Positions 58,551-62,751 of a stretch of DNA of 62,751 nt are shown in pieces; position 1 is the stretch's first letter, and each line of letters opens with the position of its first letter. Below the pieces are notes generated by a model. That model was not told the origin of the DNA. It ran no database searches and saw nothing but the letters and a program-made list of their open reading frames with translations. The stretch covers positions 1 to 62,751 of the forward strand of contig JAGXSD010000060.1 of assembly GCA_018333955.1 (NCBI GenBank), given 5' to 3'. The DNA is from Erysipelotrichia bacterium. Its GTDB lineage: Bacteria; Bacillota_I; Bacilli_A; Erysipelotrichales; Erysipelotrichaceae. The translations under genes were made by a program, and so were the position numbers.

Positions 58551-60374
58551 ATGTGTGGTTTTACTGGATTTATTGATGGAAGTATAGACAAAAAGCAGAT
58601 TATTAAATCGATGAATGATACTATAATTCATCGTGGTCCAGATGGAGAAGGATTTTATATTGATGACTCTATAGCAATGGGGTTTAGACGATTATCTATC
58701 ATTGACTTAAGCCATGGGGATCAACCCATTTTCAATGAAGATCATACCAAAGTGTTAAATTTCAATGGAGAAATCTATAATTATCAAGAACTTAGAGAAG
58801 TTCTAATTCAGCGAGGACATATTTTTAGAACTCACTCAGATTCTGAGGTCATTCTTCATGGGTATGAAGAATTTGGAGAAGACATAGTAAGTCATTTAAG
58901 AGGAATGTTTGCTTTTGTGGTCTACGATATTGAACAAAAGACATTCTTTGCGGCACGTGATCATTTCGGAATTAAACCATTTTACTATGCGCTTCAAGAT
59001 GATTTATTTATATATGGATCAGAAATTAAATCATTTTTAAAGCATCCATCATTCAAAAAACAATTTAATAAGGATGCCCTTCAACCTTACCTCACCTTTC
59101 AAACATCTGTTTTAGATGAAACTTTCTTTAAGGGTGTAAAACCATTATTACCTGGACACACTCTTCGGTATTCAAATGGAGTCATCAATGTACAATCTTA
59201 CCATGAATTAACTTTTGAACCAAAAATCAAAGTCAGTAAAGACATGATCAATGATATTATGCGTGATAGTGTGAAAGCTCATCAAATCGCAGATGTCGAG
59301 GTAGGTAGTTTTCTATCTTCTGGTGTTGATTCAAGTTATATTGCTTCTATTAGTGACGTTCATAAAACATTCACAGTGGGTTTTCAACGAGACGGATTCA
59401 ATGAATGTGATGAGGCTAAGGAATTAGCTTCAATCCTAGAAACTGAGCATTATTCGAAGGTTATTACTCCAGATGAGTTTTTTAGTGTTTTGTCTGATAT
59501 TCAATATCATGCGGATGAACCTCATTCAAACCTATCAGCTGTTCCATTGTTCTTCTTATCTAAAATGGCAGCAGAGCATGTTAAAGTTGTGTTATCGGGG
59601 GAAGGTGCAGATGAACTGTTTGGTGGCTATGAATCATATCTTCCCACTAAGAAATGGGGATTATCACGTAGATTCCCAAGTGGGATTCGCTACCCGATTG
59701 GGTATGTCTTGCGTAAGCTTTCAAATTATGTGAGTAAGATTCAACCCTGGGCTGATGCTTTCAGTCCAATTGAAAAAGTATTTATAGGTCAAGCCATGAT
59801 TATGAGTGAAAAAGAATCGAAATCACTTTTAAAGAAACCATATCATTCAAAAGTATCAGTTGAAACTATTGTGTCCCCATGGTTTAAGATCAGTAAAGGA
59901 TTATCTGGACCCCATCGTAAAATGCATCTGGATATGAATCTATGGTTAAATCGAGATATTTTAACAAAAGCGGACAAAATGACGATGGCACATTCTTTGG
60001 AGTTAAGAGTTCCTTTCCTTGACATAAAAGTTTGGAATGTCGCAAGAGAAATTGAATCTTCGCAAAATATTGATAAGACAAAGACAAAAAAACTATTCCG
60101 AGAAGCAGCACTAGAAAAAATTCCACAAGCATGGGCTAACCGTAAAAAACTTGGTTTTCTTGTCCCATTCAAATTTTGGATTTTGGATGAACATATCATG
60201 CTTTGGATTAAAGAGAAATTTTCATTGCCATTTGTTGAAGAATTCTTTAATCAAGAGAAATTATTGAGTTTACTAAACAAACATTCACACTCCATTAGTG
60301 AAGGCAGAAAGATTTATACCATTCTTTGTTTTATCTTATGGTATGAGCGATATTTTGTTGAGGATTTTCATTAA
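58551..60374 (+). CDS. asnB: Asparagine synthase, glutamine-hydrolysing
   Basis: This 607-residue protein has an N-terminal class II glutaminase domain with Cys2 (MCGFTGFIDG), RGPDGEG and FNGEIYNYQEL. The C-terminal synthetase domain has SSGVDSSYIAS (about 254-264). It makes asparagine from aspartate. Related AsnB proteins in some Gram-positives amidate peptidoglycan, and the murT/gatD neighbours make that an alternative here. AAAGGAG precedes the ATG. Confidence 0.88.
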   Translation: MCGFTGFIDGSIDKKQIIKSMNDTIIHRGPDGEGFYIDDSIAMGFRRLSIIDLSHGDQPIFNEDHTKVLNFNGEIYNYQELREVLIQRGHIFRTHSDSEVILHGYEEFGEDIVSHLRGMFAFVVYDIEQKTFFAARDHFGIKPFYYALQDDLFIYGSEIKSFLKHPSFKKQFNKDALQPYLTFQTSVLDETFFKGVKPLLPGHTLRYSNGVINVQSYHELTFEPKIKVSKDMINDIMRDSVKAHQIADVEVGSFLSSGVDSSYIASISDVHKTFTVGFQRDGFNECDEAKELASILETEHYSKVITPDEFFSVLSDIQYHADEPHSNLSAVPLFFLSKMAAEHVKVVLSGEGADELFGGYESYLPTKKWGLSRRFPSGIRYPIGYVLRKLSNYVSKIQPWADAFSPIEKVFIGQAMIMSEKESKSLLKKPYHSKVSVETIVSPWFKISKGLSGPHRKMHLDMNLWLNRDILTKADKMTMAHSLELRVPFLDIKVWNVAREIESSQNIDKTKTKKLFREAALEKIPQAWANRKKLGFLVPFKFWILDEHIMLWIKEKFSLPFVEEFFNQEKLLSLLNKHSHSISEGRKIYTILCFILWYERYFVEDFH

Positions 60375-60402
60375 GAAAGGTGTATTCACATCTTTCTTTT
60401 TT
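60373..60402 (+). terminator. Terminator after asnB
   Basis: AAGAAAGGTG and CATCTTTCTT (with one G-T pair) form a 10-bp stem with a T-run, overlapping the asnB stop. Confidence 0.85.
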
Positions 60403-60432: not shown

Positions 60433-61827
60433 ATGAACACAATCACAAAAATTCGTTTTTTTATGGCTTTATGGATTTCTAAGAGTGTCGTCATTTTGAT
60501 GAAACTTTTAAAACGTAATGCAACTCATTTTCCTGGAGATGTCGCACTAAAGATTGATCCACAATTCTTAAAACATATTTCATCTCCTAAGAAAATAATC
60601 ATGATTACTGGTACCAATGGTAAGACAAGTGTTACTAATATGGTTCTTGATGTGTTTGCACTTGATAAGACCCCAGTGATTCATAATGCATTAGGAAGTA
60701 ATATCCTTCAAGGGATAGCCTCCAGTATTTTAACAGGCACGACATTCCTCAATAAAAGCAAACATGATCTTGCGGTACTTGAAGTGGACGAGCGAAGCTC
60801 ACGCTTAATCATGCCTTATCTGAAACCTGATTATTTGATTGTGAATAATCTTTTTAGAGATTCCTATCGTCGTAATGCGCATGTGGAGTTTATCATCAAG
60901 ATCCTTCAAAACACCATTCCTTCATCCACGCATGTGATTGTGAATGGGGATGATATGTTTGCGACACAAGTAATTCAAAATCGAAAACATACCATCTTCT
61001 CATTACAACCCATCAGTGATGAAGTGACTCGTCATGACTCGAGAATTCATGATGGACAAATATGTCCACGATGCTTCCATCCTATGACTTTTTCCTTCGT
61101 GAGATATCATCATCTTTCACATTTCATGTGTCCTCAATGTGAACTTCAAAATCCACCGAGTGATGTCGTCGCCATGTTGACATCGTTAAAGAGTCATCAA
61201 CTGCATTTAAATGTCCATCAAAAACTATATGTGATAGAGCGACCTCAACCAAGTGTCAATGATGCTTATAATACCGCTGCCGTTTTTGGCTTGTTTGCGG
61301 CTATGGGTGATGACTTAGATCATCGTGCACAACAACTTTCCACCATCAAAACGGTATCATCACGCTTTAGTGAAATGATGGTTAAAAATAAACGTATTGT
61401 GGGGTTACTTGCGAAAGATCAAAATCCTGTGGCGAATTCTCGTTTGTGCGATTTCCTGACCACTCAACCTCATTGGGGAAGACTAGGGTTATGTTTCATG
61501 AATGAAGTGCATGCGCATGAAGATCATCCTCACGAAGTAGAAAACATGGCGTATTTGTATGATACTGATTTTGAATACTTGAATGAATGTCAAGTCACAC
61601 AGTTTATGTTAGGAGGACATCGTCGTTTTGAATTTAGAAGTCGATTATTACTGGCAGGATGTGATCCACAAAGTATGGTCATGGTAAAAACAGAAGATGA
61701 TGAAATTGATGCGATTGATTTAAACAAAGTGGATACGATTGTTTTGATGTATTCCACTAAGAATATCCCTGAAGGCCTGATGCTTAGAGAAAAACTCATT
61801 GCGCGTATCAATAAGGAGGTCATATGA
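60433..61827 (+). CDS. murT: MurT-like Mur ligase, divergent
   Basis: This 464-residue protein has the P-loop MITGTNGKTSVTN (about 57-69), EVDERSS and a zinc ribbon (CPRC...CPQC, about 214-237). The C-terminal domain matches DUF1727. MurT activates the D-Glu alpha-carboxyl of lipid II with ATP. Several family signatures have changed: FRDQMDRFGE reads FRDSYRRNAHVE, NPAGMN reads NPVANS, and DGRDTSWIYD reads HPHEVENMAYLYD. YDTDFE keeps the partner Asp. It overlaps gatD by 4 bases. The true acceptor chemistry is uncertain. Confidence 0.8.
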   Translation: MNTITKIRFFMALWISKSVVILMKLLKRNATHFPGDVALKIDPQFLKHISSPKKIIMITGTNGKTSVTNMVLDVFALDKTPVIHNALGSNILQGIASSILTGTTFLNKSKHDLAVLEVDERSSRLIMPYLKPDYLIVNNLFRDSYRRNAHVEFIIKILQNTIPSSTHVIVNGDDMFATQVIQNRKHTIFSLQPISDEVTRHDSRIHDGQICPRCFHPMTFSFVRYHHLSHFMCPQCELQNPPSDVVAMLTSLKSHQLHLNVHQKLYVIERPQPSVNDAYNTAAVFGLFAAMGDDLDHRAQQLSTIKTVSSRFSEMMVKNKRIVGLLAKDQNPVANSRLCDFLTTQPHWGRLGLCFMNEVHAHEDHPHEVENMAYLYDTDFEYLNECQVTQFMLGGHRRFEFRSRLLLAGCDPQSMVMVKTEDDEIDAIDLNKVDTIVLMYSTKNIPEGLMLREKLIARINKEVI

Positions 61828-62537
61828 TCATTGAATGGTTAAATCCTCAAGGAACCATGTTATTTGGTGATCGTGGTAATCTTGATATACTACTTAGAAT
61901 ATTTCCTCATGCGACCTTACTCAATACATCTTTATTTGATATTCCAGCCTTTACAAAGACTCATGTGGATTTAGTCTGTGTGGGTTCCATGAATGAGCGT
62001 ATGCAAGATCAAATGATTGCGTGGTTAACTCCTTATAAAGATGATCTTTCACAACGCATTCGAAATGATTATGGATTATTATGGTTTGGTAACAGTTGGG
62101 AGATATTAGGACACAAGATTAAAAGAAAAGATGAAGAAATTTTAGGATTACATCTTTATCCTTTTGAAGTCAATCAAGAATCCATTAAGCGATATAATGC
62201 CTTAGTTGGTTTAGAAACACAATATGGTTTAATTCTTGGTCATAAAAGCACATTCTCAATGATAACTAATACGGATTCTATCCCAAGTTTTGGGAAGGTT
62301 GTGAATGGATTTGGCCATAATTTAGACGATCCCCTTGATGGCTTACATGATCATCATATGATTGCATCTTCACTCATGGGACCACTACTCGTACTCAATC
62401 CACACTTCACACAACAATACTTACAAAAGATCACCAAGCAGGAGATTGTTATTCCATATGAGGAAGATTTAATCTTAGCTTATGAAGCAAAGAAACAAGA
62501 ATTTGAAAATACTAAGCATTTCATCTATGACAAGTAA
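61824..62537 (+). CDS. gatD: GatD-like amidotransferase subunit lacking catalytic Cys and His
   Basis: This 237-residue homologue of the class I glutaminase GatD is recognised by GDRGNLDILLRIF near the N-terminus, VGLETQYG, NGFGHNLDD and MGPLLVLNP. The nucleophile elbow CGGYQ of Staphylococcus GatD aligns with GNSWE (residues 89-93), and the catalytic-His motif YLHGP with SLMGP (M185). The only Cys (C52) is elsewhere. Glutamine hydrolysis by this protein is therefore not expected. AAGGAGG 6 bases before the ATG shows it is well translated and not a decayed gene. Confidence 0.8.
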   Translation: MIIEWLNPQGTMLFGDRGNLDILLRIFPHATLLNTSLFDIPAFTKTHVDLVCVGSMNERMQDQMIAWLTPYKDDLSQRIRNDYGLLWFGNSWEILGHKIKRKDEEILGLHLYPFEVNQESIKRYNALVGLETQYGLILGHKSTFSMITNTDSIPSFGKVVNGFGHNLDDPLDGLHDHHMIASSLMGPLLVLNPHFTQQYLQKITKQEIVIPYEEDLILAYEAKKQEFENTKHFIYDK

Positions 62538-62586
62538 AAAAGACTCCTCGAAGATATATCTTCAAAACGGACACAATAAAAAAAGG

Positions 62587-62616
62587 CACTAGTGTAAAAT
62601 TACATTAGTGTTTTTC
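62587..62616. terminator. Hairpin with T-run before the IS3-type gene
   Basis: CACTAGTGTAA and TTACATTAGTG pair with one G-T, flanked by AAAAAA and TTTTT, so it can act as a terminator in both directions. It may shield the element from outside transcription. GGACACAA just upstream (62565) could belong to the element end. Confidence 0.65.
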
Positions 62617-62631
62617 TTTAGGAGGAATGAA

Positions 62632-62751
62632 ATGAGAAAAACGAAGAAACATAAAGTCTATAGTATTGAGGAAAAGAATGAAATTGTAAAGGAGTATTTA
62701 GGAGGATTGAGTCGTAGAAATGATTTAATCCGAAAGTATGATCTTGGATCT
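62632..62751 (+). CDS. IS3-family transposase OrfA (helix-turn-helix), 5' part
   Basis: The 40 codons to the window edge read MRKTKKHKVYSIEEKNEIVK, then EYLGGLSRRNDLIRKYDLGS. This fits the helix-turn-helix N-terminus of IS3/IS150-type OrfA (..Y..E.K..iv..yl.G.s...l...y.i.s). GGAGGAA 6 bases upstream. OrfB would lie outside the window. Confidence 0.75.
   Translation, partial: MRKTKKHKVYSIEEKNEIVKEYLGGLSRRNDLIRKYDLGS

Follow-up and report, generated by a model that had tools for sequence, protein, structure and literature searches.

A clade of MurT/GatD homologues with a glutaminase-dead GatD in Erysipelotrichaceae, a candidate for the attachment of residues other than GatD-derived ammonia to the cell wall

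Several pathogens cannot live without the MurT/GatD isoglutaminyl synthase, whose product, D-isoglutamine, governs cross-linking. The window analyzed here, a stretch of 62,751 nucleotides from an Erysipelotrichia bacterium, carries a murT gene and a gatD-like gene whose product has lost the residues required for glutamine hydrolysis. This locus raises the question of what such a pair may attach to the cell wall, and what role is left for a GatD that is no longer a glutaminase.

The murT gene is located at positions 60433..61827 of the forward strand and encodes a protein of 464 residues with a Mur ligase middle domain, a zinc ribbon, and a MurT_C domain. In a profile search the product was matched by Pfam MurT_C (1.7e-12, above the cut-off) and Mur_ligase_M (1.7e-7). 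The NCBIfam MurT profile was matched with an E-value of 8.6e-46, yet the score is 156.7 bits against an equivalog cut-off of 800. The predicted structure superposes on MurT structures with Z scores of 28-30, for a model of moderate quality (pLDDT 81, pTM 0.69). The gatD-like gene (61824..62537, forward strand) encodes 237 residues and was identified using phmmer, an AlphaFold2 model, and structural superposition. An E-value of 4.4e-9 was obtained with phmmer against GatD from S. aureus, and the NCBIfam GatD score is 44.9 bits against an equivalog cut-off of 450. The GatD fold was confirmed by superposition of the AlphaFold2 model (pLDDT 90.4) on S. aureus GatD (6h5e_A), with a Z score of 25.5 over 226 residues at 2.4 Å.

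The frames of murT and the gatD-like gene share the sequence ATGA, and from this 4-base overlap we infer that the two genes are co-transcribed. A ribosome-binding site for gatD, AAGGAGG, is found at 61813..61819 of the forward strand, and the gatD-like open reading frame is uninterrupted. The intact frame, the strong ribosome site, and the overlap with murT reported in an earlier note on this DNA are thus all seen in the sequence. No second, active MurT/GatD was found in the genome from which the window is taken (G000); only one MurT_C is present there, and rescue by another active pair was ruled out on this basis.

The segment GNSWE of the GatD-like protein (residues 89-93; 62088-62102, forward strand) places Gly89 (62088..62090) at the position of the nucleophile Cys94, as judged from alignment and structure. 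In the segment SLMGP (residues 183-187), Met185 (62376..62378, forward strand) is the equivalent of His189. This register agrees across phmmer, MAFFT, and the predicted-structure superposition, with GatD from S. aureus and S. pneumoniae as the references. The third residue of the triad is contributed by MurT, where Asn371 (61543..61545, forward strand) is aligned with Asp349. The earlier note had proposed the loss of both the Cys and the His of GatD, which is borne out by the three methods and by 71 related sequences, and had overlooked the change in MurT.

A family search of about 200 genomes (Erysipelotrichaceae), many of which are metagenome assemblies, provided two kinds of MurT, denoted here as class A and class B. 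The window pair falls in class B. For comparison, 71 distinct class B pairs were set against 51 class A pairs, which include those from S. aureus, S. pneumoniae, and Leifsonia. The Cys column of GatD contains Gly in 70/71 class B sequences, Asn in the one other, and Cys in none, whereas class A contains Cys in 51/51 and His in every sequence tabulated. At the His189 position class B is never His and presents Ile, Leu, Thr, Val, Met, or Asn. The loss of Asp349 from MurT is not universal since Asp is still found in 20/71 class B pairs. The same loss of Cys and His across 71 distinct GatD sequences is neither chance nor a sequencing slip, and the change from Cys to Gly is one of only three GatD columns that separate the two classes at 85% in each.

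A conserved Cys and His elsewhere in the active site, which the earlier note had recognized as evidence against its reading, are not seen in the alignment of the 71 class B sequences. No other Cys or His column of GatD is conserved above 50% in this set, and a shifted catalytic Cys or His was ruled out. The equivalent of the glutamine-capturing Arg128, Arg123 in the window protein (62190..62192, forward strand), is kept in 65/73 class B rows of the alignment. The Gln of the elbow is replaced by Glu or Asp in 66/73 rows.

Class B hosts are found in the Erysipelotrichaceae, in another family of Bacilli with genomes of 0.8-0.9 Mb (L058-L060), and in Vescimonas fastidiosa of the class Clostridia. 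No genome in the family search contained class A and class B together, with class assigned by sequence where this was read and otherwise by score. In the class B loci examined, a gatD comes after murT. Class B forms a single group in the MurT, GatD, and joint trees, which requires one change by parsimony. With support values calculated by FastTree only, this clade is well supported in the GatD tree (0.95), moderately so in the joint tree (0.74), and poorly in the tree of MurT by itself (0.17). Because the pairs from S. aureus, S. pneumoniae, and Leifsonia all belong to class A, a GatD without the Cys represents the derived state. No description of this glutaminase-dead clade was found in a literature search of open-access papers.

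Within the genus of the window, dN for gatD is about 0.21-0.27 and dS about 1.6-2.6, and the values for murT are alike. The omega of about 0.1 for gatD is indicative of purifying selection. A locally degenerate GatD was ruled out by this value together with the conservation across the clade. Multiple class B pairs are found in the same genome in G028, G128, G136, G181, G193, and others. In genus g24, the genomes G100, G126, G186, and G194 (L107-L118) each carry 2-4 diverged class B murT-gatD pairs.

The catalytic core of MurT is kept in class B. In the window protein, the alignment identifies the ATP-binding motif GTNGKT (60610..60627), the motif LEVDE with the Mg-binding acidic pair D119-E120 (60778..60792), and the Cys4 zinc ribbon formed by C211, C214, C233, and C236 (61063..61140), all on the forward strand. 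The ATP loop, the Mg acids, the Asn for the acceptor carboxylate, the hinge Arg, the Lys preceding Asn-Pro, and the zinc ribbon are all retained, and residues G60, G63, K64, N90, D119, E120, R311, and K328 together with the zinc cysteines reach 93% conservation or more across class B. Judged from these residues, the MurT partner of the dead GatD is apparently active. In GatD, G186-P187 and N192-P193, which are located at the MurT contact in the S. aureus structure, are conserved in at least 69/70 class B sequences.

The gate loop of MurT is rebuilt. In S. pneumoniae MurT this loop sits at the interface with GatD and was proposed as an ammonia channel (PMC6085368). The window sequence is NLFRDSYRRNAH (60847..60882, forward strand; alignment and PMC6085368) in place of the canonical N-x-F-RDQ-x-DR-x-x-E. 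Within this loop, RDQ-x-DR-x-x-E is changed to RD-[S/Q]-x-x-RN-[G/A]-[H/N] in class B MurT, and the window version reads RDSYRRNAH.

A role for GatD apart from glutamine hydrolysis was previously seen in S. aureus. The C94G mutant of GatD is dead with glutamine, and the NH3-dependent amidation by MurT still requires GatD (Munch 2012, PMC3266927). MurT with GatD C94G amidates lipid II using free NH3 when the pH is 8.5 but fails to do so at pH 7.5, and MurT by itself is inactive (PMC3266927). A structural role for GatD is well founded because C94G supports amidation with NH3 and MurT alone is inactive (PMC3266927). The earlier note had suggested that GatD is kept as a structural or substrate-binding subunit; the loss of the glutaminase and the retention of GatD as the partner of MurT stand (PMC3266927), and the tie to a B-type wall is not supported. 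The activity of S. aureus MurT is abolished or severely reduced by the D349N mutation (PMC6113224).

These observations are consistent with a class B pair in which MurT would still form the acyl-phosphate at the α-carboxyl of D-Glu in lipid II, with lipid II assumed as the acceptor from homology. GatD would keep MurT in the active form, and the attacking nucleophile would come from solution rather than from glutamine hydrolyzed by GatD. The class B family probably attaches to the wall either something other than GatD-made ammonia, or free ammonia. We give an even chance to the fuller reading of a MurT ligase with a noncatalytic GatD that joins, at the expense of ATP, the α-carboxyl of D-Glu to a nucleophile that GatD does not produce, with an amino acid or amine likelier than ammonia. 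An amino acid or amine is favored by the rebuilt gate loop, by the 2-4 pairs in some genomes, and by known walls with Gly (PMC3035309) or with cadaverine and putrescine (PMC10628300) on the α-carboxyl of D-Glu. What counts against this preference is that NH3-dependent amide formation would give the same sequence signature. The Asp349 still found in 20/71 class B pairs also speaks against the fuller reading. We would more tentatively suggest a repurposed class B MurT/GatD that places an amino acid or amine on the D-Glu of lipid II, with the former glutaminase serving as a scaffold or amine-binding subunit and the paralogues serving for different residues.

The pair could instead be an ammonia-dependent isoglutamine synthase that makes ordinary D-isoglutamine from free NH3/NH4+ and not from glutamine. 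S. aureus MurT with GatD C94G does so at pH 8.5, and the class B change is the same replacement of Cys by Gly, but the reaction failed at pH 7.5 (PMC3266927) and this explanation leaves the rebuilt gate loop and the 2-4 pairs per genome unaccounted for. We regard it as unlikely, although still to be taken seriously. If the assumption of D-Glu is wrong, the acceptor could be another carboxylate of the wall precursor or a recycled muropeptide; MurT is only 25-30% identical to characterized MurT and the loop near the acceptor site is altered. The Asn of Mur ligases for the acceptor carboxylate and the Mg acids are invariant, however, and a different acceptor appears improbable.

Ammonia could also be fed to MurT by another protein, such as the AsnB-type glutamine-dependent amidotransferase encoded upstream (58551..60374, forward strand; TIGR01536, 1.2e-151). 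In three genomes from the genus of the window, asnB is located upstream of murT (synteny in L024 and L025). AsnB carries a synthase domain of its own, however, and a terminator at 60373-60398 separates asnB from murT, so that asnB is probably transcribed separately from murT-gatD. In addition, the roughly 10 kb ahead of the pair in Vescimonas contain no asnB, and this supply of ammonia is considered highly improbable.

In the model drawn from the earlier note, this pair would attach to D-Glu the amino acid with which the cross-bridge of a B-type wall begins. The wall of Erysipelothrix rhusiopathiae is reported to be of type B1δ with D-Glu-Gly-L-Lys, and that of Holdemania filiformis contains D-Glu-L-Asp-L-Lys (PMC4062643). 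The B1δ bridge begins at the α-carboxyl of D-Glu with Gly or L-Asp (PMC4062643), and the activation of that carboxyl is the chemistry of MurT. FemAB is missing from the genome of the window and from 17/28 class B genomes and is present in 16/16 class A genomes (Fisher p 5e-5, for genomes that are not independent). It is found in 0/7 Erysipelothrix genomes, where two class B Erysipelothrix genomes are counted in both the Erysipelothrix and the class B groups. Such a pattern would fit an unusual bridge in many of the class B genomes, but does not prove one.

Against the proposal, E. rhusiopathiae has neither a class A nor a class B pair and no spare Mur ligase. The genome G155 was taken as this species from exact matches of the species primer ER1F at nine sites, and it comprises 1.77 Mb in one contig; the Erysipelothrix genus primer MO101 gave no match. 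Of the five Mur-ligase genes of G155, four read as those for MurC, MurD, MurE, and MurF, and one encodes a 411-residue protein taken as FolC. The B-type wall of E. rhusiopathiae is thus made independently of the pair, and the expectation that the loss of Cys and His tracks B-type walls fails in the one verified B-type species (PMC4062643; G155 without the pair). In addition, class B is found in only 2/13 Erysipelothrix genomes, the class B pair is missing from genus g51, FemAB is present in 11/28 class B genomes, and the genus of the window contains a racemase and ATP-grasp module. It is possible that class B MurT/GatD attaches a bridge amino acid; that it does so as the first residue of a B-type bridge is quite doubtful.

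The specificity motifs of MurE, considered as an indicator of wall type and of whether stem residue 3 could carry the bridge, vary among class B genomes and are not translatable into an amino acid. Two MurE paralogues with different specificity motifs are encoded in G000 (C6:15701-17077 and C11:14888-16243; L193, L199) and in several relatives. G000 (C30, L235) and G107 (L236) encode a ligase resembling MurF, about 530 residues long, whose hydrophobic N-terminal region probably spans the membrane; it was seen in G000 and g51 and is absent among the E. rhusiopathiae matches. The pair on a plasmid of Leifsonia shinshuensis (Microbacteriaceae) is class A. In this plasmid (NZ_CP043642.1, L221:6001-8950) murT-gatD is followed by an M15 (VanY-like) peptidase and sits among metal-resistance genes.

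The racemase and ATP-grasp module is located next to the pair in two loci of the genus of the window. In L024 and L025, murT-gatD is followed by convergent genes for an amino-acid racemase (TIGR00035, above the cut-off) and an ATP-grasp ligase. In G000 these two genes are found on contig C44 (L263 = C44:46000-54006) and not on the contig of the window. The ATP-grasp and Asp/Glu-type racemase pair was located at L025:6737-8604 (reverse strand), L263:5868-7735 (forward strand), L264:3114-4996, L265:4760-6644, and L267:6067-9481. The same genes are beside FemAB in G063 and flank MurE in Acetoanaerobium noterae, and the pair looks like a module for the incorporation of a D-amino acid into the cell wall. 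In enterococci, a D-Asp ligase and a racemase serve the wall bridge. By analogy, the position of the module beside murT-gatD suggests that the interpeptide bridge in the genus of the window contains a D-amino acid and is not of the B type.

The end of the window (62546-62751) and the end of C44 carry similar sequence, which in both cases reads as DNA of an insertion sequence. The C44 end, read by eye, reads as the C-terminus of an IS3-family transposase; the short stretch in the window (62546-62751) gave no Pfam match to a transposase. The locus from gatD to the racemase is uninterrupted in L024 and L025, and an insertion sequence between these two genes probably broke the assembly of G000.

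The class B pair is a homologue of the MurT/GatD isoglutaminyl synthase from S. aureus and S. pneumoniae and may work partly alike. The overlapping gene order, the domain plan of MurT, the Cys4 zinc ribbon, the ATP/Mg residues, the GatD fold, and the interface residues are shared. The window pair differs in all three triad residues (the equivalents of C94G, H189M, and D349N), in the RDSYRRNAH gate loop, in its placement in a separate clade, and in NCBIfam scores far below the cut-offs. The class B pair is not to be filed as isoglutaminyl synthase because the catalytic features of the glutamine-hydrolyzing enzyme are missing. The S. aureus GatD C94G mutant (Munch 2012) contains the same change from Cys to Gly and is still needed as a partner, but it was made in the laboratory and still has His189 and Asp349, whereas the class B state is natural, ancient, and selected.

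The archaeal MurT-like and pMurC pseudomurein ligases (PMC11915815) are also related to MurT and work without a glutaminase; they have no GatD, whereas class B retains a conserved one. The stem peptide would likewise be modified by Fem transferases and by ATP-grasp bridge ligases, but these have unrelated folds and build on the amino group of residue 3 and not on the D-Glu carboxyl.

A natural and conserved glutaminase-dead clade indicates that the link between MurT and glutamine can be broken, and it cautions against the annotation of class B genes as isoglutaminyl synthase. The class B pair is a gene candidate for the non-amide residues on D-Glu, for which a literature search found no named enzyme. 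If the attachment of an amino acid or amine by this pair is true, it would provide an ATP-dependent, tRNA-independent route to the substitution of D-Glu.
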